Below are positions 20,760 through 48,718 of a stretch of DNA of 64,000 bases, in pieces. The translations under genes and the position numbers were made by a program. The notes beneath the pieces are model-generated. The model ran no database searches. It worked only from the letters and a program-made list of their open reading frames with translations, and was not told the origin of the DNA. How positions within the stretch are numbered: the stretch's first letter is position 1; the number at the start of each line of letters is the position of its first letter. Origin of the DNA: Oxalobacteraceae bacterium (lineage in GTDB: Bacteria; Pseudomonadota; Gammaproteobacteria; Burkholderiales; Burkholderiaceae_D); contig JAIZVZ010000001.1 in NCBI GenBank assembly GCA_021768485.1, forward strand, positions 1-64,000, in the 5' to 3' direction.

Positions 20760-20789
20760 CACGCCTCCTTTCGAATGAGAAAAAAGAAA

Positions 20790-20858
20790 CGTGAGCGCAG
20801 TTGCTAATTTGACCATTTCCGAGCCTGGCGAAAAGGATTTCGTCGCAACGCTCCTCGG
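20790..20858 (-). ncRNA. SAH riboswitch upstream of ahcY
   Basis: Reading the minus strand, CCGAGGAGCGTTGCGACG at the 5' end is followed by GCCAGGCTCGGAAATGGTC and then GCAACTGCGCTCACG. CCGAG and CTCGG form P1; GAGCG near the start can pair with CGCTC at the 3' end as the pseudoknot. These are the conserved blocks of the SAH riboswitch known upstream of ahcY in beta- and gammaproteobacteria. It ends about 30 nt before the ahcY start, near the ribosome-binding site, and is an 'on' switch when SAH binds. Matched from memory of the consensus, not by a covariance search. Confidence 0.92.
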
Positions 20859-20950
20859 AAAAATGCATCATACCATCGTTGCCGCCGATTTTACCAGCGT
20901 CAAATCGAAGCCAAAAGAAACGCTCCCGCACGCCCGCGTGCGGGCGCCGG

Positions 20951-37105: not shown

Positions 37106-37717
37106 TCAGCGACCCGGCGGCGTCGGCGTCACGGTCGTGGTGCCGGTACGCGGCAATGGCGGTGAAGCGGTCGGCACATTCACCGTGGCCGCCGCAGGCG
37201 GTGGCGTGGCAGGCGTTGCCGGCGGCGCGATGACCTGCGCCGGTGCCGCCATCTGCACGCCTGGGCTCGGCGTCGGCATGTTGGCGCCCATGTTTGCCAC
37301 ATTGTTTTGCACCGGCGGCAGATCGGGCAGATCAAGCCGCTTTTGCAGGCCGCCGTCGCGCAGCACCACATGGCGCGTGAAAATTTCCTCTACCGTCACA
37401 CCGGGTGCGAGCACCCCGCCGACACCGAGCGCCACAGCCGGCTTGCCGTCGACCGACAAGATCGCCGCACTGCGCTGGCCCTGATTGTCGGCCACGATGC
37501 CTTTGAGCTGATAATTGCTGGCCGCCGCCGCGCTGCCGCCAAACAAGGCGGCCGCGGCGTCCATTGCCAGCGGCGGCGCCCCTTTCGGACCCAGCGCCGC
37601 CACCGCGCGCATCGGCGGCTTGGTCGCCTGCAAAACCCAATAGGCGAGCGACATGCACAGGGCGATAAACAGCAGAAAGCTGGCAAACTGGGGCGAACGC
37701 GGCGAGAAGTGCTTCAT
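37106..37717 (-). CDS. gspC: Type II secretion inner-membrane protein GspC
   Basis: 203 aa. A single membrane helix (residues ~10-30, FASFLLFIALCMSLAYWVLQ) leads to the periplasmic HR domain (LFGGSAAAASNYQLKGIVAD, then AILSVDGKPAVALGVGG and VTVEEIFTRHVVLRDGG). The C-terminal part is a Pro/Thr/Ala-rich tail in place of a PDZ domain. GspC links the inner-membrane platform to the GspD secretin. It is last in the operon, 8 bp after gspF, the position usual for Burkholderiales (DEFC) rather than first as in Pseudomonas and Klebsiella. Confidence 0.85.
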   Translation of the reverse strand: MKHFSPRSPQFASFLLFIALCMSLAYWVLQATKPPMRAVAALGPKGAPPLAMDAAAALFGGSAAAASNYQLKGIVADNQGQRSAAILSVDGKPAVALGVGGVLAPGVTVEEIFTRHVVLRDGGLQKRLDLPDLPPVQNNVANMGANMPTPSPGVQMAAPAQVIAPPATPATPPPAAATVNVPTASPPLPRTGTTTVTPTPPGR

Positions 37718-37724
37718 ACTGTTC

Positions 37725-38936
37725 CTAACGAACCAATTGATTAATTTCGATAATCGGCATCAGCACCGCCAACACGATCAGCAACACAACAACCCCCATC
37801 GCCAGGATCAGGGCCGGTTCCAGCAGACCGGCAATGGTCAGCGTGCGCCGCTCCAGATCCTGCTCCTGGGCGCTGGCCGCGCGTTCCAGCATGGCCGGCA
37901 ACTGGCCGGTGATTTCGCCGGCCCGTATCATATGGATCAGCATAGGCGGGAAATGCTTTTGCGCCGACAGCGCGCGCGCCAGGCTGACGCCTTCGCGCAC
38001 GCTGTTGGCGGCCTCCTCGACCAGCTCGCGCATGGCGACATTGGACAAGGTGTCGCGGCTGGTCTGCAAGGCCCGCAAGATCGGCACCCCCGATCCGGTC
38101 GTAATGGCCAGGGTACTGGCAAAGCGCGCCGTATTCAGGCTGCGCTCGAACTTGCCATACAGCGGCGCCGTCAACAGCCAGGTGTGCCAGCGCAAGCGGG
38201 TGGTGCGGTTGCGCAGCGCGCGGCGCCACGCATACATCAAGCCGATGACCACAGCCAGCACTATAAAACCTTGATGGCGCACAAAGTCGGAAATGCCAAG
38301 CATGATGATTGTCAGCAGCGGCAGCTTTTGCTTGGTGTTGGCGAACACCGAAACGATTTGCGGCACCACATAGGTCAACAGGAAAATGACGATCGCAAAT
38401 GCCACCACCGTAACGATGGCTGGATAGGTAAAGGCCAGCCGGACTTTTTGCACCAGCACATTGCGCCGCTCGAGGTAGTCGGCCAGGCGCGACAGCACGC
38501 GCGACAACTGGCCGATCTGTTCGCCGGAGGCCACCAGCGCCCGGTAAATGTCGGCAAAATCGCGCGGGTGGTGCGACAGGGCTTCCGAAAACGAGGCGCC
38601 GCCCATCACGTCCGAGCGGATCGATGCCACCAGATCGCGCACATACGTGCGCTCGGCCTGCTCCAGCAGCGCCGAAAAAGCCTGCTCGAGCGGCAATCCG
38701 GCTTCCAGCAGACTGGCCAGCTGGCGCGTAAACAAGGTCAGCTCGGTGGCCGAGAGCTTCTCGCCAAAGCGCTGCCGTCCACCGCCCTCGACCTCGGCCG
38801 CGATCTGCTCGACCGTAATCGGCAACATCCCCTGCACGCGCAGGTCGGCGCGCGCCGCACGCGCACTGTCGGCATTGACGACACCTTTCTTGGTGGCGCC
38901 GACTGGATCTACGGCTTCATAACGAAATGCTGGCAT
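37725..38936 (-). CDS. gspF: Type II secretion platform protein GspF
   Basis: 403 aa, the normal length. It begins AFRYEAVDPVGATKKGVVNA and has two homologous helical domains with membrane helices at VTVVAFAIVIFLLTYVVPQI, QGFIVLAVVIGLMYAWR and LILAMGVVVLLIVLAVLMPI. Conserved motifs include LFTRQLASLLEAGLPLEQAF and SVREGVSLARAL. It forms the inner-membrane core that transmits motor action from GspE to pseudopilus assembly. It is separated from gspE by 118 bp. Confidence 0.95.
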   Translation of the reverse strand: MPAFRYEAVDPVGATKKGVVNADSARAARADLRVQGMLPITVEQIAAEVEGGGRQRFGEKLSATELTLFTRQLASLLEAGLPLEQAFSALLEQAERTYVRDLVASIRSDVMGGASFSEALSHHPRDFADIYRALVASGEQIGQLSRVLSRLADYLERRNVLVQKVRLAFTYPAIVTVVAFAIVIFLLTYVVPQIVSVFANTKQKLPLLTIIMLGISDFVRHQGFIVLAVVIGLMYAWRRALRNRTTRLRWHTWLLTAPLYGKFERSLNTARFASTLAITTGSGVPILRALQTSRDTLSNVAMRELVEEAANSVREGVSLARALSAQKHFPPMLIHMIRAGEITGQLPAMLERAASAQEQDLERRTLTIAGLLEPALILAMGVVVLLIVLAVLMPIIEINQLVR

Positions 38937-39054: not shown

Positions 39055-40482
39055 TCATTCTTTCGCCACGCGCAGCACTTCGGCCAGCGTCGTCGTGCCG
39101 TCCTGCAGCCAGCGCTCGCCGTCTTCGCGCATCAATTGCATGCCGTCGCTTCTGGCGGCATCGCGCACCTCGGCTTCCGAGGCCCGGTTGTGAATCTGCG
39201 CCCGGATCTGGTCCGTGGTACGCAGCAATTCGTAAATCCCGACCCGCCCGGCATAGCCCGATTTTCCGCACTGATCGCAACCGACCGCGTGCCAGTGCTG
39301 GCCGTCGTGGCGCCGGCAGTGCACGCACAGTTTGCGCACCAGGCGCTGCGCCAGCACCCCGAGCAGGGACGACGACAGCAGAAACGGCTCGATCCCCATG
39401 TCAAGCAGACGGGTCACGGCGGCGGCGGCATCGTTGGTATGCAGCGTCGCCAGCACCAGATGGCCGGTCAGCGATGCCTGCACCGCGATCTGCGCGGTTT
39501 CCAGATCGCGGATTTCGCCGATCATGATGACGTCGGGATCCTGGCGCAAGATGGCGCGCAGCGCTTTCGCAAAACTCATGTCGATGCGCGAGTTCACTTG
39601 CGTCTGGCCGACGCCGGCCAGATCGTATTCGATTGGATCTTCGACCGTCAGGATATTGGTGGTCGAGGCATTCAGGCGCGACAGTCCCGCATACAGCGTA
39701 GTGGTCTTGCCGGAACCGGTCGGCCCGGTGACCAGCACGATGCCGTGCGGTTGCGTGATCAGGCCGTCGAATTGCTCGAGCATCGGCAGACTCATGCCCA
39801 GATGCTGCAAATCGAGCCGGCCGGCTTCCTTGTCGAGCAGACGCAGCACCGCGCGTTCGCCGTGGCCGGTCGGCAGCGTCGACACCCGCACATCGACCGG
39901 TTTGCCGCCGACGCGCAACGTGATGCGGCCATCCTGCGGCAGGCGCTTTTCGGCGATATCGAGCTGGGCCATGATCTTGATGCGCGAAATGAGCGAGGCA
40001 TGGATCGCTTTCTTTGGCCGCACGACATCGCGCAAACTGCCGTCGATGCGGAACCGCACGACCGAGGTCTGCTCGAACGGCTCGATGTGAATATCGGATG
40101 CCCCCTCGCGCAAAGCCTGCGTGAGCAGCGCATTGATCATCCGGATCACGGGCGCATCGTCGCTCGACTCGAGCAGATCCTCGATCGCCGGCACGTCCTG
40201 CATCAGCTTGGCCAGGTCCAGATCGGCTTCGAATTCATCGACCACTTGCGCGGCATCGCTGCCGGAGCCGGCATAGGCGGCGGCAATCGCCGCTTCGAGC
40301 TCGGCCTGCGGCATCGGGCGCAAGCTCACGCGGCCGAAACGCCGCCCCACTTCGGCAATCGCCGAGGGCGGCGTAACGGCGCACGTCCACAGCTCGACGG
40401 CAAGCGGGGCAGTCTCGCTTTGCTTGGCCAGCAACATGAAGTCGCGGGCGTAAGCGTACGGTAAAAGGCGGGCGGCGCTCAT
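39055..40482 (-). CDS. gspE: Type II secretion ATPase GspE
   Basis: 475 aa. Walker A is GPTGSGKTTTLYAGL, followed by the Asp box EDPIEYDLAGVGQTQVN, Walker B region DPDVIMIGEIRDLETAQIA and the His box HLVLATLHTNDAAAAVTRL. A four-Cys zinc element (CVHCRRH...CDQCGKSG) is intact, as typical of GspE/PilB. It powers pseudopilin assembly. Its ATG lies one base after the gspD stop codon (TAAGATG), indicating tight coupling. Confidence 0.95.
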   Translation of the reverse strand: MSAARLLPYAYARDFMLLAKQSETAPLAVELWTCAVTPPSAIAEVGRRFGRVSLRPMPQAELEAAIAAAYAGSGSDAAQVVDEFEADLDLAKLMQDVPAIEDLLESSDDAPVIRMINALLTQALREGASDIHIEPFEQTSVVRFRIDGSLRDVVRPKKAIHASLISRIKIMAQLDIAEKRLPQDGRITLRVGGKPVDVRVSTLPTGHGERAVLRLLDKEAGRLDLQHLGMSLPMLEQFDGLITQPHGIVLVTGPTGSGKTTTLYAGLSRLNASTTNILTVEDPIEYDLAGVGQTQVNSRIDMSFAKALRAILRQDPDVIMIGEIRDLETAQIAVQASLTGHLVLATLHTNDAAAAVTRLLDMGIEPFLLSSSLLGVLAQRLVRKLCVHCRRHDGQHWHAVGCDQCGKSGYAGRVGIYELLRTTDQIRAQIHNRASEAEVRDAARSDGMQLMREDGERWLQDGTTTLAEVLRVAKE

Positions 40483-40483
40483 C

Positions 40484-42697
40484 TTATTTGGCCGGTTCCG
40501 CAGTCGTGGCATCGCTCGCCGCCGGTGCCGGTGCCGGTGCCGGGGCAGACGCCGGAGCCGGGGCCGACGCCGGCGCCAATACCGGGGTCGCGGCGACAGG
40601 CTTGGACTGCTTATCCTGCGGGAACAGCTGCAGCAGCTGGCCGCCGGCCGGGCGCCCGTTCTTCAACGGCCCGAGCTCCGGCGTGCCGTAATCGGGGATG
40701 ATGGGCGCCGGCAATGGATCGGCCTCTTTCTGGATGTTGGCCGCCTCGCTGCGCATGTAATCATAACGGTCGTTCAGCAAGACCGCATCATCGTCGGCAT
40801 TGCGCACGATGGTCGGACGCAGAAATACCATCAGATTCGTTTTGCTGCGGCTACGCGTCTGATAGCGGAACAGCCAGCCGAGGTAAGGGATATTGCCCAG
40901 CAGCGGGACCATGGCATAGGTATCGGAAGTGCTGTCCTGGATCAGGCCGCCCAGCACCAGGATATGGCCGTTGTCGGCCAGCGCATTGGTTTCGATCGCG
41001 CGCTTGTTGGTGATGATGCCGGTGGTGCTGCTGGTGCTGGCGATCGACGAACTCTCCTGGTAAATCTTCATCTTGATCGTGCCGCCTTCGGAAATCTGCG
41101 GCTTGATCGTCAACTGAATCCCGATGTCCTTGCGCTCGATGATCTGGATCGGCGTCGAGCTGGTAGTGGTCGTGTAATAGCCGGAGACGAACGGCACGTT
41201 CTGGCCGACCATGATTTTTGCTTCTTCATTATCGAGCGTGAGCAGATTCGGCGTCGACAGGATATTGGCATTGCTCTGCCCGGCCAGCGCATGCGCCACC
41301 ACAGCCAGCGAGCTGTCGACCGTCCACTCGATACCCAATTCGGCCGATTTGTCGGCCGTCAGCTCGACGATCAGCACTTCGATATACACTTGCGCGCGGC
41401 GCACGTCGAGCTGGTCGATCACGCTGCGCAGATTGCGGTAAATCGGTTCACTGCAGGTAATGATCAAAGTGTTGGTGGCGGCGTCGGCCTGGATGAAGCC
41501 GGCCATGCCGCCGGTAGACAGGTTGTTCGACGAAGCATTGGCGCCCGAGCCGCTGGCGGCGCCGGTGCCGGAGCCACTGGCGCCGCCAGTCGATGACGAA
41601 GACGAGATCGAGGTCGAGCTCAGCGAACCGCTGCTCAGGCCGCCGCTGTTGCTGCCGCTGTTACCACTGCCGCTGCTATTCCCGGTGCCAGTTCCGGTTC
41701 CGCCGCCGCTACCGCTGCCGCTATTGGTCGGATTGCTCGTCAGCGTCGAGGTGTCCGACGAAATCACGGCGCGCAGCGTCTGCGCCAGCTTGGTCGCCTC
41801 GGCATTTTTCAGGTACACCACATGGACATTGCCGCGCTGCGCGGTCGGCTGGTCGAGTTTGGCGATCAGGGCCCGGGCCAGGCTGGCGCGCGCCGACGAC
41901 GGCGCCCGCAGTACCAGCGAATTGGTGCGCGAGTCGGCCAGCAGGCTGATGCGCCCGGCGTCGGCCGGGCCGCTCGTGTTATCCATCAGGCGCGTGACCA
42001 TCGCGGCCAGGTCGGCGGCAATCGCATACTGCACCGGCACCACCGCGATATCGCTGCTCGAGGGAACGTCGAGCGCACTGATGATGCGGCCCAGGCGTTT
42101 CAGGTTGTCGGCATAATCGGTGATGATCAGCGTGTTGTTGCCGGGATTGGCATTGATCGTGTTATTCGGTGACACCAGCGGTCGCAGCACCGTCACCATG
42201 CTGCTCGGCGACTCGTAATTGAGACGGAAAATCTGGGTCGCGATCTGGTCGCCCTTGAGCGCCGTACCGCCGCCGACTGTCGTCGGCCCCGGCTGCACCT
42301 TGGCATCGGCCTCCGGCACCACTTTGGCAAAGCCATCGCCAAGCACGATGGCATAGCCCTGCAGCCGCAATTGCGAACTGAGCAGGCTGAAGGCCTGGGC
42401 CTTCGACAGCGGCTTTTCCGACACCAGCGTCAGCGTGCCCTTGACGCGCGGATCGATGATGAAGGTGGTATTGGTGTAATGGCCGACGGCCTTGATCACC
42501 GATTCGATATCGGCGCCGACAAAATTGAGCGCCGCATCGTCGCGCATCGCGGTGCGCGCCGGCGGTGCCGGTTGCGCCCGGGCCGGCACGCTGACCAGCG
42601 TCGCCGCGCTGCACAGCAAGGCCAGCGTCAGCGGTGCCAGCGGGGTCAATAAAGAAGACCGGGAAATGGAGGAGTGATGTAGTTTCGATTTTTTCAT
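40484..42697 (-). CDS. gspD: Type II secretion secretin GspD (shortened secretin domain)
   Basis: 737 aa. A signal peptide and N0/N1 domains (DDAALNFVGADIESVIKAVG, TNTTFIIDPRVKGTLTLVSE) are followed by N2/N3 domains. Inside N3 sits a long Gly/Ser/Thr linker (from GSGSGGGTGTGTGNSSGSGN) of about 80 residues. The secretin part has NILSTPNLLTLDNEEAKIMV, GQNVPFVSGYYTT and the NIPYLGWLFRYQT block, then a Pro/Ala tail. Between the N3 end (KSAELGIEW) and ALAGQSNANILSTP there are only about 15 residues where homologues have roughly 60-100, so early barrel strands seem missing. It overlaps the gspN stop by one base (TAATG). Confidence 0.9.
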   Translation of the reverse strand: MKKSKLHHSSISRSSLLTPLAPLTLALLCSAATLVSVPARAQPAPPARTAMRDDAALNFVGADIESVIKAVGHYTNTTFIIDPRVKGTLTLVSEKPLSKAQAFSLLSSQLRLQGYAIVLGDGFAKVVPEADAKVQPGPTTVGGGTALKGDQIATQIFRLNYESPSSMVTVLRPLVSPNNTINANPGNNTLIITDYADNLKRLGRIISALDVPSSSDIAVVPVQYAIAADLAAMVTRLMDNTSGPADAGRISLLADSRTNSLVLRAPSSARASLARALIAKLDQPTAQRGNVHVVYLKNAEATKLAQTLRAVISSDTSTLTSNPTNSGSGSGGGTGTGTGNSSGSGNSGSNSGGLSSGSLSSTSISSSSSTGGASGSGTGAASGSGANASSNNLSTGGMAGFIQADAATNTLIITCSEPIYRNLRSVIDQLDVRRAQVYIEVLIVELTADKSAELGIEWTVDSSLAVVAHALAGQSNANILSTPNLLTLDNEEAKIMVGQNVPFVSGYYTTTTSSTPIQIIERKDIGIQLTIKPQISEGGTIKMKIYQESSSIASTSSTTGIITNKRAIETNALADNGHILVLGGLIQDSTSDTYAMVPLLGNIPYLGWLFRYQTRSRSKTNLMVFLRPTIVRNADDDAVLLNDRYDYMRSEAANIQKEADPLPAPIIPDYGTPELGPLKNGRPAGGQLLQLFPQDKQSKPVAATPVLAPASAPAPASAPAPAPAPAASDATTAEPAK

Positions 42698-43476
42698 TAG
42701 AATTCTAACGCGATAAAATTTTTGTCGCCTTCTTTGCGCCGCTGACCGAGCAAATTCAACATATTTGCCAGCCTCTCTTCTTGCCCGGTTTCGGCGCTGG
42801 CCTTGCCAGAAAACCGAAAACGTCCATTATCCAACATTCCCGTACCAGACAGCAGCAACGGGCCGTTGACTGTCGTCAATGCAATTCGTGCCTGCGCGCC
42901 ATGCCAATCAAATACCATCTGATACGCCCCAAGCGGGCGGATCGACGACAGTTGCGATGCCACATCATCGAGCCGCAAGCTCATGCGTCCGTCAAGATAC
43001 AGTGCCGAGCCATGCATGCCCACCGACAAGGCACTCCACGACAGCTGCATCTGCCCGGTCGGCGCCAGCGTATTGAGCGGGGCGCCAAGGCCGGCCAGGC
43101 CTGAAATCGGCAAATCGAGCAGCCCCGGTGCCACATCCCAATGCGTCCAGCCGCCGCGCACCATCACCGGCTGCGGCATCGCCACCGGATTGCTCAGCTC
43201 GAGCTCGACCTGCCCCAGCAATAACAGCGGCGACAAGCGCCAGCTGAAGCGCCCCGGCAACAATGGCGTGACGGCATCCTTGCCGCTCGGCGCGCCGCCA
43301 ATAAACGCCGAACCGCGCCACAGAGTACCTGTCGCATCGCCAAGCGTCAAACGACCGCCGCTCTGGCGCTCCAGGGCACTGGCCAGCCAGGCGGCAGGAC
43401 AATACGCAAGCACGGTCAACAAGATTGCAAACAGGCCCGCCGCCAGCCATGGCAGGGCCGCACGCACTTTATTCAT
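42697..43476 (-). CDS. gspN: Type II secretion protein GspN
   Basis: 259 aa. One N-terminal membrane helix (LPWLAAGLFAILLTVLAYCP) followed by a soluble periplasmic domain, with LTLGDATGTLWRGSAFIGG and LSWRLSPLLLLGQVELELS typical of GspN. GspN is an accessory component found only in some T2SS operons, with no firm role. It overlaps gspM by 8 bp and gspD by one base. Confidence 0.82.
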   Translation of the reverse strand: MNKVRAALPWLAAGLFAILLTVLAYCPAAWLASALERQSGGRLTLGDATGTLWRGSAFIGGAPSGKDAVTPLLPGRFSWRLSPLLLLGQVELELSNPVAMPQPVMVRGGWTHWDVAPGLLDLPISGLAGLGAPLNTLAPTGQMQLSWSALSVGMHGSALYLDGRMSLRLDDVASQLSSIRPLGAYQMVFDWHGAQARIALTTVNGPLLLSGTGMLDNGRFRFSGKASAETGQEERLANMLNLLGQRRKEGDKNFIALEF

Positions 43477-44035
43477 TTTTCTTCAGACGCAAAGTCAGTG
43501 TCGCATTGACGATGCCCGGCACCGCTTGCGCCGTGACGTTGGCTTCCTGTACCGAAATACGCGCACTGTGCTGGACATCATCGAGCCAGGCCAATAGCGT
43601 GGCGAAGGCAACGCCATTTAACTGAACTTTGGCGAAATCGCCCATCAAGGCCACGCTTTGCGCCGCCAGACCATGGCGCGACAGGCTTTGTTCGATACTG
43701 TCGTGGGCCGCCGGCGCCGCCGTTTTGCCGGCCAGGGTCGACGCTTCGAGTACCAGCGCCCGCATTTGCGCGTTTTGCTCGCGCAGCAGGGGCAAGCTGC
43801 GTTCGAGTTGCGCACGGCCGGCGATGGCCGGCGCCAACAGTAATAAATACGCCAGCGCCAGCAATAACAGCGCCGCGCCCGCCGTCAGGTAATTGCGCTC
43901 CTGGCGGCTGCGCGCGTCCCAAAAAACACTCCAGCGCGCCTGCAATGGCGCCAGCCGGGCAACCGCACTGGCCAATTGCCTGCGCATTTCGCTTGTCATC
44001 TCGCTTTTCATCTCGTTTGTCATCGTGCTGTGCAT
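43469..44035 (-). CDS. gspM: Type II secretion protein GspM
   Basis: 188 aa. A membrane helix near residue 50 (NYLTAGAALLLLALAYLLLL) precedes a ferredoxin-like periplasmic domain (VALMGDFAKVQLNGVAFATL, LAWLDDVQHSARISVQEANV). It pairs with GspL in the inner-membrane platform. The N terminus (MHSTMTNEMKSEMTSEMRRQ) is encoded by a degenerate 12-bp tandem repeat (about 43983-44040), so the exact start is doubtful; the ATG in front of RRQLASAVARL is an alternative. Confidence 0.85.
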   Translation of the reverse strand: MHSTMTNEMKSEMTSEMRRQLASAVARLAPLQARWSVFWDARSRQERNYLTAGAALLLLALAYLLLLAPAIAGRAQLERSLPLLREQNAQMRALVLEASTLAGKTAAPAAHDSIEQSLSRHGLAAQSVALMGDFAKVQLNGVAFATLLAWLDDVQHSARISVQEANVTAQAVPGIVNATLTLRLKKNE

Positions 44036-44048
44036 TTCGCTTTGAATT

Positions 44049-45365
44049 TCATTTTCCGCTCTTGATTTGCCAGACGCCGCTGGCCTGCTGGCTCAGCGAC
44101 AGATTATGTGCCGCCAATGCCATCTTCATCGCCTCGAACGGGGTCTCGCCATCGTTCTTGAAGCGCACCAGCAGCGCCCGCTCCTTGTATTCGAGCGCCG
44201 CAATGCTGGCATGATTTGGCAAGCCATTCCAGAGCTGGCCGAAGGCAGCCGCCAGCGCCACGAAATCGTCGCTGGCCAGTTGCCCCGAGTCGGCTCTGGC
44301 TGCCGCCACTTTTTGCCGCATCTGCAGCAGCGGGTCGATCACCACCGCTTCTTTCGGATAGGCCGATTTGTACGTTTGCAGCAGTAAAAAGCGCTGGGTA
44401 TCGGCGTCGCGTTTCAAGCGCCACCAATCGCCATTGAGGACAAGGACATTCATCAGCATCAGCAGCGCCGCCAGTCCGATCGGCCAGCGCCAGCGGCGCC
44501 AGTCGACGCCGCCGACCAGCCCGAGATCGAGCCCGGCGGCCAGATCGGGCGGCGGCGCAGAAGCGTCGGGCAGCCAGTTGGCCCAGTGATCGGGCGCCAG
44601 CGTCACGCCGCTCAGGCCGCCGGCATCGGCGGCGCGCTGATACGATGCCAGCTGGGCCGGCGGCACAAACAACTGCACACTGGCCTCGGGCGCCAGCGCC
44701 CGCAGCGCCTGCAAGACCTGCAACGCGGCCGCCTCGGGCACGGCGCCGGCCTCATTCAATGCCGGCTTCGATACTTTGTCCGATACTTCGTGCGATACCG
44801 CCAGGCCGACGCCATCATAACGCCCCAGGCGCAAGCTCAATTCGAGTTCGCCATTGTCGCCGGCCTCGCCGACGGCGGCATACAGCATGTCGGGGGCCAG
44901 CGGCAGGCACAGCTGCGACGGCAGCACGCTGATGCGGCGCGCGCCCTGGGCCTGCAAGGCTTGCACCAGCCGCACCAGCCACGCGCGCTCGACCACCGCC
45001 ACCCGCAGCAAGCCGTCGCCCTGCTCGCCGGCCAGCGGCGCCGGGCCGGCGGCAACCACGACGCAGTCGGCCGGATCGGAAATCAACTGTTCTTCGATCA
45101 GATTGGGCAAGGCCGCTTTCAAGCGCTTGCCGCCCAAGGGCGGGGCCTTGACGCGCAGCAGACTGACATCGCTGGCGGCGAGCAACAGCACGACGCGCGA
45201 GGCCAGTGCGATCACCGCGGCCAGGCTGCCCAACAATCCCGCGCCTTGCTGCATGACGGTTCCGCTGTCGGCGACCAGGGCAAAGCGGCATGCCGGCGCC
45301 AGCAGAGCGCCATCGGCAAGCTCGACGCTCACGCGGGACGGGTGGCGGATATACAATGTACTCAA
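44049..45365 (-). CDS. gspL: Type II secretion protein GspL
   Basis: 438 aa. A cytoplasmic actin-like domain (from STLYIRHPSRVSVELADGAL through LKAALPNLIEEQLISDPADC) is followed by a membrane helix (WRWPIGLAALLMLMNVLVLN, ~residue 310) and a periplasmic ferredoxin-like domain. It docks GspE to the membrane and pairs with GspM, whose gene begins 13 bp downstream. Confidence 0.88.
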   Translation of the reverse strand: MSTLYIRHPSRVSVELADGALLAPACRFALVADSGTVMQQGAGLLGSLAAVIALASRVVLLLAASDVSLLRVKAPPLGGKRLKAALPNLIEEQLISDPADCVVVAAGPAPLAGEQGDGLLRVAVVERAWLVRLVQALQAQGARRISVLPSQLCLPLAPDMLYAAVGEAGDNGELELSLRLGRYDGVGLAVSHEVSDKVSKPALNEAGAVPEAAALQVLQALRALAPEASVQLFVPPAQLASYQRAADAGGLSGVTLAPDHWANWLPDASAPPPDLAAGLDLGLVGGVDWRRWRWPIGLAALLMLMNVLVLNGDWWRLKRDADTQRFLLLQTYKSAYPKEAVVIDPLLQMRQKVAAARADSGQLASDDFVALAAAFGQLWNGLPNHASIAALEYKERALLVRFKNDGETPFEAMKMALAAHNLSLSQQASGVWQIKSGK

Positions 45366-45414: not shown

Positions 45415-46434
45415 TCAATTCTCGCGCACCCACACCACCGTACTGGTATTGATATTACGTTGCAATAAAGCCAGCGTCTGCAGCGATGCACGATCGAGTT
45501 TGACACGCCCGACGACAAAAAAGAAATCGGTCTCGGTGGCGATGCTGTCACTCAATGTCACCGCCTTGCCATGCATGCGCGCCTTGAAATCGGCGATATT
45601 CTTGAAATACGCGCGGTCGCGCTGCAGCACCAGGGCACGGGCATCGGCCATCGACAGCAGCGGCATCACCGCCGCCAGCACTTCGGGCGAAGCCGTGTTG
45701 ACATTGATCTTGGTCGGCGACACCGGCAAGAAGGCGACATGATCCTGCAAACGATCCCTGACCTCGACCGACAAACCCGGCACCGCCAGCAAATCGTCGA
45801 TCTGCGTCATCGGCATCAGCGTCGGCTCCACATTGCCGGCGCTGGTGCCGGTGCTGGTGGTGCTGCTGGTGCTGCTGGTGGTACTGGTGCTACTGCTGGT
45901 AGTGCTGGTGCCGGCGGCGGTACTGCCGCCGCTGCTGGCCACCACCATGGCCGCGATACGCTCGGCCAGTTCCGGTTTTTGGTTCAAATTAATCAACAGG
46001 CGCCGCAAGATCGCCAGCTCGATCGGATCGACCATGCCATTGCGCGCCAGATTGCACAGATTGTAACGTGCCTGTGCGTCCACGATATTGCCCGACAAAG
46101 AGGCATCGGTGCTGTCGCCGCCAATCGGGCTTTTTTCGATATAGTCGTCCAGGCGCGTATCGGCCAGAGTCACCGCCCACGGCTCGCCCATATGGTCGAC
46201 GCTCGAATAGCGCTTATCCTCGCGCAAAATCAGCCGCGCCCAGTCGAGCGCGCCACGCAAAATCCACTTCGTCTGCAATTGCAGGCGCTGGTTTTCCATC
46301 GACCGCACCTGGACCTGCTGCTGCCAGAACAAGCTGGCAACAATGGTGATGGCCAGCGCCGTCAACAGCATGGCGGTAATGATCGCCACCCCGCGCTGGC
46401 GCCGCTTGTCGACGATGCCCGCACGGCGGCTCAT
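45415..46434 (-). CDS. gspK: Type II secretion minor pseudopilin GspK
   Basis: 339 aa, much larger than other pseudopilins, as usual for GspK. The prepilin start is RRQRGVAIITAMLLTALAIT with the cleavage site after Gly. The alpha-domain region has WARLILREDKRYSSVDHMGE and the comEA-like helix-hairpin part KINVNTASPEVLAAVMPLLS. A Ser/Thr-only stretch of about 30 residues (STTSSSTSTTSSTSSTTS core) interrupts the middle. GspK caps the pseudopilus tip with GspI and GspJ. The start overlaps the gspJ stop (ATGA). Confidence 0.9.
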   Translation of the reverse strand: MSRRAGIVDKRRQRGVAIITAMLLTALAITIVASLFWQQQVQVRSMENQRLQLQTKWILRGALDWARLILREDKRYSSVDHMGEPWAVTLADTRLDDYIEKSPIGGDSTDASLSGNIVDAQARYNLCNLARNGMVDPIELAILRRLLINLNQKPELAERIAAMVVASSGGSTAAGTSTTSSSTSTTSSTSSTTSTGTSAGNVEPTLMPMTQIDDLLAVPGLSVEVRDRLQDHVAFLPVSPTKINVNTASPEVLAAVMPLLSMADARALVLQRDRAYFKNIADFKARMHGKAVTLSDSIATETDFFFVVGRVKLDRASLQTLALLQRNINTSTVVWVREN

Positions 46435-47219
46435 ACGGCCCCCAGCAAAAAGACTTTCACGACGCCGCTTTCCAGACCGCGCAGCTGCAAGCTGACCTTC
46501 AGGCCGACCGGGTTGGCGAAGGCCGCCGCCGCCGACAGCAGCGGGGTGGCGCCGGTGGTGCTGGTGGTGCTGCTGGTCAGGCTGGCAATGGCGCCCGACA
46601 GCGAGATCAGGCCCGCGCCCGCCGGCGTGGTCGCGCTCGAACCGGCCGTCATCGGGTCCGCTTCGCTGCTGCCGGTGTCGACCACGCGCCAGCCGGGCCC
46701 ATCGCTTTGCCATTGCAGTATTTCCATCGCCGCCACACCCGATTGCAGCACCACCATTTGCGCCGTGTCGGTATCGGCCAGCGCCGCCTGCCACAAGGTA
46801 TCGAGCACCGAGAGGTCGCGCGTGGCGACCGATTCGCGCCGGCTCAGCACGCCGTCCTTGAGCCGGAAAGCCACCACTTGCAAGCGCGTCGGCTGGTCGT
46901 CGGCAAAGACGCGGCGCACCAGGATCAGGCGCTGGGCATCGGCCACCACGGTCTTGCGATTGCCAAGGTCGCTACTGCGCACAAAATGATCGCAATCGCT
47001 TTGCAATTGCGCAAACGCCAGTTGCATGCCCCGCGTTTGCTCCATGTCCGCACTGAGCGCGACGCGCGAGCGGATGATGCTGTCCAGGCCGCGCCAGCCG
47101 AGCACCGCGACCACCGCCAGAATGGTGATGGCAACCAGCAGCTCGATCAGGGTAAAGCCGCGCGCCGCATCCGGAGCCGGTGCCAGAGGCTGCGCGCGGG
47201 CCGCCAGCGCCTCAGCCAT
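46431..47219 (-). CDS. gspJ: Type II secretion minor pseudopilin GspJ
   Basis: 262 aa. A prepilin signal RGFTLIELLVAITILAVVAV (cleavage after Gly, Glu at +5) follows about 20 residues of leader (AEALAARAQPLAPAPDAA). The body has GWRGLDSIIRSRVALSADME and LVRRVFADDQPTRLQVVAFR, matching GspJ. A low-complexity insert (TAGSSATTPAGAG and SLTSSTTSTTGATPL) lies before the C-terminal strands. The start at 47219 overlaps gspI by 8 bp. Confidence 0.9.
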   Translation of the reverse strand: MAEALAARAQPLAPAPDAARGFTLIELLVAITILAVVAVLGWRGLDSIIRSRVALSADMEQTRGMQLAFAQLQSDCDHFVRSSDLGNRKTVVADAQRLILVRRVFADDQPTRLQVVAFRLKDGVLSRRESVATRDLSVLDTLWQAALADTDTAQMVVLQSGVAAMEILQWQSDGPGWRVVDTGSSEADPMTAGSSATTPAGAGLISLSGAIASLTSSTTSTTGATPLLSAAAAFANPVGLKVSLQLRGLESGVVKVFLLGAV

Positions 47220-47661
47220 TGGGCACCACCTGCACCAGCTTGATGATGCGCCGCTCCAGATTGCCGGCCTCAAATACCGCGACCTCGACGCGCCGGAAAT
47301 TCTGGTTCGGCGTGGTCAGCACTTCTTCGGCACACACCAGATGCAAATTGCCTTGCGAACAGTCGAAACTGCGCCTGCCGATCGCCGGAAATTCATGACC
47401 GAGGCGGATTTGCACCAGACGGTTTTCGGCCGACCAGGTCGCCATCATGGCGGTCCGCAGGCTGGCGCTGTTTTGCGTCAGGCTGCCGACCGCGCGCAGC
47501 GAAGCGCCCAGCGAAGTGCCGACGATGACCAGCGCCACCAGCACCTCGAGCAGCGTGAAGCCGCCGGCCGGCCGGCGCGGGCCGTTGCGCCCGGTATTGC
47601 ACCCGGTATTGCACCGTATATTGCGCAGCAAAAGCGGCAAGGGGAAAAGAGAAGGCGGCAT
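47212..47661 (-). CDS. gspI: Type II secretion minor pseudopilin GspI
   Basis: 149 aa. The prepilin motif GGFTLLEVLVALVIVGTSLG is followed by MMATWSAENRLVQIRLG and VVPNG at the end. The leader before the cleavage site is long (about 33 residues) and includes a repeat NTGCNTG encoded by a duplicated GTATTGCACCCG-type word; a later start is possible but no ATG is closer. It forms the pseudopilus tip with GspJ and GspK. Confidence 0.85.
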   Translation of the reverse strand: MPPSLFPLPLLLRNIRCNTGCNTGRNGPRRPAGGFTLLEVLVALVIVGTSLGASLRAVGSLTQNSASLRTAMMATWSAENRLVQIRLGHEFPAIGRRSFDCSQGNLHLVCAEEVLTTPNQNFRRVEVAVFEAGNLERRIIKLVQVVPNG

Positions 47662-47667
47662 CGCAGC

Positions 47668-48165
47668 TCAATCGACAACGAAATGGCCGATGCCGTCGGC
47701 GCGGATGGCAACGCTGGCCTCGCCCGCCGACAGCGTCAGAACAAAGGGCTTGTCGACCGGTTCGCGGCCGAATGTGATGCGCAGCGGAGTCTGGCTATCG
47801 GCCGCCGGCGGATCGATCGCCAGCCCGACCGGCGCCAGCTTGAACGGGCGTTCGCGCAACAACTCGTCAGTCATGGTTTGCCATTTATTTTCATCGCGCA
47901 GCAAAAAACGATAGTGGTCGGACTCGGCCTCGAACGCAATCATGCGGTTGCGCACAATCGCTTCATCGCGCGCCAGCTGCAGCAGCAGGGCGATACGCTG
48001 GGCTTCGTTTTGCAAATTCTGTCTGGCGCTAGGCATCGCATTGACCGACACCATGCCCAGGATGATGCCGGCAATTACCAGTACCACCAGCAATTCGAGC
48101 AGGGTGAAACCGCCTTGCCAGCACGCGCCGCAACGGCGCGGCCTGCATCCGTTTATGGCTCCCAC
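47668..48165 (-). CDS. gspH: Type II secretion minor pseudopilin GspH
   Basis: 165 aa. Prepilin motif QGGFTLLELLVVLVIAGIIL, then ARQNLQNEAQRIALLLQLAR typical of GspH, and a soluble domain ending GEASVAIRADGIGHFVVD. The start lies inside the end of gspG (13-bp overlap), so translation is probably coupled. Confidence 0.88.
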   Translation of the reverse strand: MGAINGCRPRRCGACWQGGFTLLELLVVLVIAGIILGMVSVNAMPSARQNLQNEAQRIALLLQLARDEAIVRNRMIAFEAESDHYRFLLRDENKWQTMTDELLRERPFKLAPVGLAIDPPAADSQTPLRITFGREPVDKPFVLTLSAGEASVAIRADGIGHFVVD

Positions 48166-48596
48166 GATCCGATATCGGCGTCAATACCGCTACCGCCGGG
48201 CTGGCCGTCAGCGCCCAGGGAAAAGATATCGATTTCGCCTTTGACGCCCGGCGACAGATACAGATACGGGTTACCCCATGGATCTTTCGGCAATTTGTCG
48301 ATATAGCCGCCGGCTTTCCAGCCATTGGCCGCCGGACCGCTGGTCGGCTGGGTGACCAGCGCCTGCAAGCCTTGTTCGGTGGTCGGATAGCGCTGATTGT
48401 CGAGCCGGTACAATTTCACGGCCTGCATCAGGGTGGCGATGTCCTGGCGCGCCGCGCCAATCTTGGCGTCGTCGGTACGGCCCATCAATTTCGGCACCAC
48501 CAGCGATGCCAAAATACCCATGATGACGACCACCACCATGATTTCAATCAGCGTAAAGCCGCGCGCGCGGCGTGGGAGGGGGAGCTTGGGCATCAT
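48153..48596 (-). CDS. gspG: Type II secretion major pseudopilin GspG
   Basis: 147 aa. The prepilin motif is RARGFTLIEIMVVVVIMGIL, followed by VVPKLMGRTDDAKIGAARQD, LYRLDNQRYPTTEQGLQALV, LPKDPWGNPYLYLSPG and the calcium-site SLGADGQPGGSGIDADIGSW. It forms the pseudopilus shaft. ATG 48596 or 48593 both work. It is the first gene of the GHIJKLMNDEFC operon, and the promoter should be within the 120 bp before it. Confidence 0.95.
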   Translation of the reverse strand: MMPKLPLPRRARGFTLIEIMVVVVIMGILASLVVPKLMGRTDDAKIGAARQDIATLMQAVKLYRLDNQRYPTTEQGLQALVTQPTSGPAANGWKAGGYIDKLPKDPWGNPYLYLSPGVKGEIDIFSLGADGQPGGSGIDADIGSWEP

Positions 48597-48718
48597 TCGT
48601 GTACATCTAAAAAAGGTTGGACCAACCGGCCCGGTGACAGAGTATAAGGCCGAACCGTCGCGGCGCACCAAAACGATAGTATGACGCGGCGCGCGCGCCG
48701 CCGGACGATTGCTAACAT

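Follow-up and report, generated by a model that had tools for sequence, protein, structure and literature searches.

Which part of its outer membrane pore has been lost by the GspD of an Oxalobacteraceae bacterium, and can a type II secretion system (T2SS) secretin be built without it? This question is raised by the gspD gene in the window, i.e., the first 64,000 nucleotides of contig JAIZVZ010000001.1 (assembly GCA_021768485.1). A preliminary description, made from the letters alone, had noticed that only about 15 residues separate the end of the N3 domain from the following core, and had suggested that early barrel strands are lacking, either by an in-frame deletion or because the secretin is unusual. 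The gene is indeed a single open reading frame (ORF) of 737 amino acids (aa) on the minus strand (40484-42697, P0001), with neither a stop nor a frameshift. The protein scored 615.9 bits with the T2SS secretin GspD model TIGR02517 (curated cut-off 351.35), and it contains an N0 domain (PF21305), three PF03958 (Secretin_N) stretches and PF00263 in full length. The scores for type III secretion system (T3SS) secretins (TIGR02516, 136.8 bits, cut-off 238.45) and for the type IV pilus secretin PilQ (TIGR02515, 223.5 bits, cut-off 284.35) were below the respective cut-offs. In addition, GspD is encoded among the genes gspC and gspE to gspN in one run on the minus strand. Residue numbers are those of P0001; AlphaFold2 (AF2) model numbers are one lower, as Met1 was left out of the reference.

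The shortening of GspD was confirmed to be genuine in this sequence. For its measurement the best frame per locus was taken from 138 loci (140 were found, but L001 and L116 represent the query), and the frames were reduced to 123 different relatives, which were aligned with the query using MAFFT (124 rows). Exclusion of two truncated relatives (L035 and L085) left 121 relatives, i.e., 122 rows with the query. From W458 to N478, the start of NILSTP, the query has 19 residues, versus 67-85 residues in all 121 full-length relatives. From ELGIEW to ALAGQSN there are 11 residues, and thus the short stretch after N3 was real, while the count of about 15 was too high. The gap was also reproduced with the nearest solved homologue, XcpQ of P. 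aeruginosa (5wln), for which the alignment with the query halted at chain residue 352 and restarted at 395. About 7 aa of the apical region are left in the query before helix alpha-11. The end points of the deletion are only approximate, because protein identity to the nearest aligned relatives does not exceed about 64%. Compared with the relatives, some 48-66 codons would have been lost in frame, which is part of the reading preferred below, whose chances are judged to be balanced. As a separate observation, four of the loci (L045, L054, L063, and L076) have GspD open frames of 930, 1001, 1046, and 1011 aa, respectively, which are longer than most, and part of each may be upstream open frame.

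A 73-aa junction peptide was used to search for further short forms, and the results refer to the matches listed. In the family search (336 of 392 genomes matched, own genome included) the own genome had 140.8 bits and the next one 51.7 bits, and in the class search (236 of 369 genomes matched, own included) the next best match had 46.1 bits. A second short-form GspD was not found in either search, and this absence is informative, because matches were ranked best first and a short form would rank top. Three weaker rows cover most of the peptide at 40-43% identity (G274, 1-72; G093, 1-68; G587, 2-72) and were read as alignments that probably continue into an ordinary lip; G587 has a second match to the peptide downstream in the same frame. 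Two simple explanations were thus ruled out. The alignment and both searches exclude that the short form is a trait common to the sampled relatives. The reading of the ORF and a genome search with a relative's version of the lost stretch, in which the best hit (E 0.149) was at gspD itself and other sites gave nothing significant, exclude that the missing piece was relocated in the protein or the genome.

Published secretin anatomy allows the lost part to be named. The outer barrel of BfpB is made up of the residues between N3 and the inner barrel, together with the C-terminal part, and gate 1 comes after the first inner stretch (PMC12114550). In pIV the secretin domain begins at residue 175, and residues 199-234 are without density, which is a typical size for a phage lip; at the same position T2SS secretins have 51-60 residues, or about 80 with a cap gate (PMC8563730). 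The apical region is located at the same site and comprised 34-101 aa across the 6,167 T2SS secretins surveyed by Barbat and colleagues (PMC10550240). The T2SS lip normally contributes four strands per subunit and extends the outer wall (PMC6155069), and it was termed the major membrane-spanning region of T2SS secretins (PMC6532946). With its about 7 aa the query lies outside the surveyed range, and it also lacks the apical region of at least 80 aa that characterizes Vibrio-type (top-gated) secretins. It is still called GspD, as a lip-less variant, because the curated cut-off does not include the lip, although the surveyed members share it.

The strands were mapped on the query from this anatomy, not from coordinates. 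The outer strands would be A at about 436-458, B at 477-488, C at 580-596, and D at 611-631, and the inner strands 493-505, 519-535, 541-552, and 563-574. The AF2 model has strands at 435-447, 476-487, 492-504, 518-534, 540-551, 562-573, 579-595, and 610-630 (model numbers), and thus the four outer and the four inner core strands are all present in it, with strand A drawn only to residue 448. It is a single chain, not a multimer, with a mean predicted local distance difference test score (pLDDT) of 69.1 and a predicted template modelling score (pTM) of 0.42. In the AF2 model of L053, a full-length relative, three further strands (405-413, 420-427, and 461-468) and a helix occupy the extra region; the pLDDT of these strands is mostly below 50, and the first one overlaps the edge that is retained in the query. 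The early barrel strands that had been reported as lacking are thus there in the model, and the lost part, which has strands of its own, is another one. We infer that it is the extracellular beta-lip, or apical region, between the outer strands A and B, and that the core was left intact.

The query was also compared with known secretins. XcpQ was the best sequence match of the query in the PDB, and PulD was the best Foldseek match; with whole models Foldseek gave large root-mean-square deviations and low template modelling scores, and VIA-align 2 returned secretins plus unrelated chains that matched the N0 domain. The query has N0-N3, the core, the amphipathic helical loop (AHL) and the gates in common with the Klebsiella-type (top-gate-less) T2SS secretins XcpQ/XcpD (5wln), PulD (6hcg), and E. 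coli K-12 GspD (5wq7), but these retain a beta-lip. The f1 phage secretin pIV (7ofh) has a compact lip of 36 aa and a core fold like that of the query, in which about 15 residues occupy the position of the pIV lip when the pIV boundaries are applied; pIV itself has only N0 and N3 and no S-domain. The mitochondrial GspD of N. gruberi and G. okellyi is reported to make pores in vitro, but these eukaryotic proteins are also devoid of N0-N3 and the S-domain, whereas the query keeps N0-N3 and strand A. The T3SS secretin InvG is a precedent for fewer lip strands, with three per subunit versus four in the T2SS (PMC6155069), but it still has a lip, and the T3SS models were under their cut-offs on the query. 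A report of a lip-less or short-apical secretin was not found among the papers listed from the open-licence literature. How the outer membrane is crossed by secretins whose hydrophobic rim is so short is described as unsettled in a study of VcPilQ (PMC7545093).

A second peculiarity had been seen in N3, which is a periplasmic domain, i.e., a Gly/Ser/Thr linker of about 80 residues that was taken for an insertion. The linker is present, has 89 aa and is the longest of the aligned rows. Nevertheless, it is not an anomaly, which is ruled out by the lengths in the alignment: the median is 59 aa (124 rows), the two longest linkers of relatives have 80 and 81 aa, and, judged from these rows, the linker is a family trait at the upper end of its range. 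Its length could be taken to mean that the lip is supplied otherwise, either by this long Gly/Ser linker or by a separate protein that caps the rim. Such a replacement is very improbable, as the linker belongs to a periplasmic domain and has a pLDDT of 31-36 over most of its length; furthermore, a search for the lost stretch at other sites of the genome gave nothing significant, and no search was aimed at a capping protein.

The residues around the gap and in gate 1 were compared next to those of the relatives. In the GspD alignment 166 columns are conserved at at least 95%, and the query keeps 158 of them; the departures number eight, or 11 by leave-one-out. Four residues of the query were seen in none of the 121 relatives, namely Q457E and G465A at the edges of the gap and F517I and T519I in gate 1 (consensus Q457, F517, and T519 in 121 of 121 relatives each, and G465 in 120). 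Gate 1 thus has I517 and I519 where all relatives have F and T, and with 17 aa it is the shortest of the 122 rows (18-23 aa in the relatives). In open InvG, the tip of gate 1 contacts the outer barrel and the lip of neighbouring subunits, and the lip is displaced up and out (PMC6155069). Of the six conserved columns within 451-472, two were changed to residues unseen in relatives (hypergeometric P 0.006, and 0.03 for all departures, both post hoc). Residues 594-611 around the AHL ranked first of 122 on the Wimley-White interface scale and fifth on the Kyte-Doolittle scale, and the whole secretin core ranked 1 and 16, respectively. The hydrophobicity near the loop may compensate for the missing membrane-spanning lip, or it may have arisen by chance, as the branch is long. 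Beside the loop (40874-40915, minus strand; aa 595-608), the charged or polar residues E595 (99 of 121 relatives), K596 (96 of 121), and N608 (96 of 121) are A, M, and W in the query, which occur in no aligned relative at these positions.

These changes also bear on the question whether the deletion is an error of assembly or sequencing, by which about 150-200 bases were dropped from the contig while the true gene is full-length. The assembly has 241 contigs, the genome is the sole member of its genus among the genomes compared, and a random deletion would be in frame one third of the time. However, the residue changes and the shortening of gate 1, at a distance of some 40-60 residues, cannot be produced by a misjoin, although they could be unrelated divergence, and the flanks of the gap (Q457E and G465A) are unlike a clean excision from an ordinary gene. 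A relative's version of the missing stretch was not significantly matched elsewhere in the assembly, and the PilQ-like secretin of the genome (L002, the one that was read among four other secretin-like loci, L002-L005) has a connector of 73 residues, versus 32 in the query by the same measure. Direct repeats of at least 10 bases were not found in 41200-41430, a weak argument, because only a single copy would remain after a collapse. Overall, such an error appears improbable.

Alternatively, the deletion could be real but damaging, so that the secretin has lost insertion or secretion and the T2SS has begun to decay. This would fit with the description of the lip as the major membrane-spanning region (PMC6532946), with the changed invariant residues and the unusually divergent core, as relaxed selection would give, and with the GspD/GspF distance ratio, which is at the upper end (63rd of 71). 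Nevertheless, decay is considered unlikely. The gsp run, in the order G-H-I-J-K-L-M-N-D-E-F-C, has only open frames without a stop or frameshift, and a prepilin peptidase family match is present elsewhere in the genome. The ratio of the mean GspD to the mean GspE distance is 2.14 (57th of 73) and thus within the family range (1.79-2.47, median 2.00), the GspD/GspN ratio is 41st of 77, and nearly all conserved columns are kept. The non-functional T2SS that the preliminary description had envisaged is possible, but has no direct support; the changed pore that it had also envisaged is judged to be probable.

The preferred reading, to which about an even chance is given, is that of a real, partly co-adapted lip-less T2SS secretin that inserts more shallowly, in a lineage near the Massilia/Janthinobacterium/Duganella group. 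In a GspE tree of 73 rows (midpoint root, for drawing only) the query joined the Massilia-Janthinobacterium-Rugamonas-Duganella group with a support of 100/97 and a branch of 0.26. In such a secretin, GspD would still build a double-walled barrel of about 15 subunits, with the outer strands A and B linked by a short turn and helix alpha-11 in place of the lip. Strand C, strand D and the amphipathic loop that connects them would provide the membrane anchor, and the pore would sit shallower in the outer membrane, with a lower, wider and more open rim. Gate 1 would have no lip to pack on when opened, and its shortening and new hydrophobic residues would fit this.

Several points weigh against a shallow, co-adapted pore. 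The loss of the lip is known from one genome, in a single assembly, and the barrel geometry is a prediction from the monomer model with the above scores. As the lip was termed the major membrane-spanning region, its loss could well block insertion. The secretin core is among the most divergent (115th of 122; N0-N2 93rd; ratio of core to N0-N2 113th of 122), which is also expected from relaxed constraint. The 11 leave-one-out departures exceed those of 113 of the 122 rows, yet other long branches equal or surpass the query. Both the clustering P values and the ranks for hydrophobicity were obtained post hoc. The Wimley-White and Kyte-Doolittle scales disagree for residues 597-610 (ranks 1 and 43 of 122, respectively), for strand C (579-594; ranks 1 and 85), and for strand D (611-631; ranks 13 and 53). 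More tentatively, and with somewhat less than an even chance, the protein may be a working bacterial T2SS secretin that lacks a lip by nature. The pore could then be built and opened without a lip, and after the loss gate 1 and the membrane-docking loop would have changed to match, with lip and gate evolving together.

The coordinates of the GspD features and of the gsp genes are summarized in Table 1. The true start of gspK is probably nearer to 46400, because the family match starts at residue 133 of the ORF. The gspJ-like frame overlaps the listed gspK frame, and both starts need care. Outside of the gsp cluster, a S-adenosylhomocysteine (SAH) riboswitch was found at 20786-20862 on the minus strand (64.9 bits, gathering score 37).

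Table 1. GspD features and gsp genes in the window, with the basis of each assignment
Feature	Position	Strand	Basis
gspD, T2SS secretin	40484..42697	-	intact ORF, 737 aa
N0 domain, aa 57-126	42320..42529	-	Pfam PF21305, 88.5 bits
Gly/Ser/Thr-rich linker inside N3, about aa 312-400, 89 aa	41498..41764	-	alignment
Outer-barrel strand A after N3, about aa 436-458 (AQVYIEVLIVEL...GIEW)	41324..41392	-	AF2 strand 435-447 (model numbers); reach to W458 suggested by pIV 175-198 and BfpB legend
Site of loss, aa 459-477 (19 aa)	41267..41323	-	alignment columns
Putative helix alpha-11 after lip, aa 464-472, retained	41282..41308	-	AF2 helix 463-471 (model numbers); name after PMC10550240
Outer-barrel strand B, about aa 477-488 (ANILSTPNLLTL)	41234..41269	-	AF2 strand 476-487 (model numbers)
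Pfam Secretin core, aa 470-632	40802..41290	-	PF00263, 167.8 bits, profile 1-169 of 169
Putative gate 1 hairpin, aa 504-520, 17 aa	41138..41188	-	alignment; name by comparison with pIV
Putative AHL, about aa 597-610 (VPLLGNIPYLGWLF)	40868..40909	-	identity suggested by secretin papers
gspE ATPase	39055..40512	-	TIGR02533, 696.1 bits, cut-off 630.25
gspF	37725..38936	-	TIGR02120, 520 bits, cut-off 424
gspC	37106..37717	-	PF11356, 36.7 bits, cut-off 27
gspN	42697..43476	-	PF01203, 109.8 bits
gspM	43469..44035	-	PF04612, 105.5 bits
gspL	44049..45365	-	TIGR01709, 232.1 bits, cut-off 65
gspK	45415..46794	-	NF037980, 263.1 bits, cut-off 130
gspJ-like pseudopilin	46431..47273	-	N_methyl; TIGR01711, 33.3 bits, below cut-off 64.85
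gspI	47212..47661	-	TIGR01707, 63.5 bits, cut-off 44.35
gspH-like pseudopilin	47668..48165	-	PF12019, 36.9 bits, cut-off 21; TIGR01708, 75.9 bits, just under cut-off 80
gspG	48153..48671	-	TIGR01710, 192 bits, cut-off 88.85

Taken together, the lip has been taken as the major membrane-spanning part of T2SS secretins, and the gspD gene of this bacterium seems to manage without it. If the pore works, strands C and D plus the amphipathic loop would be the smallest unit of a bacterial secretin that inserts into a membrane, and the mitochondrial homologue hints in the same direction. In that case the protein would also offer a natural example for testing what the lip does in gating.
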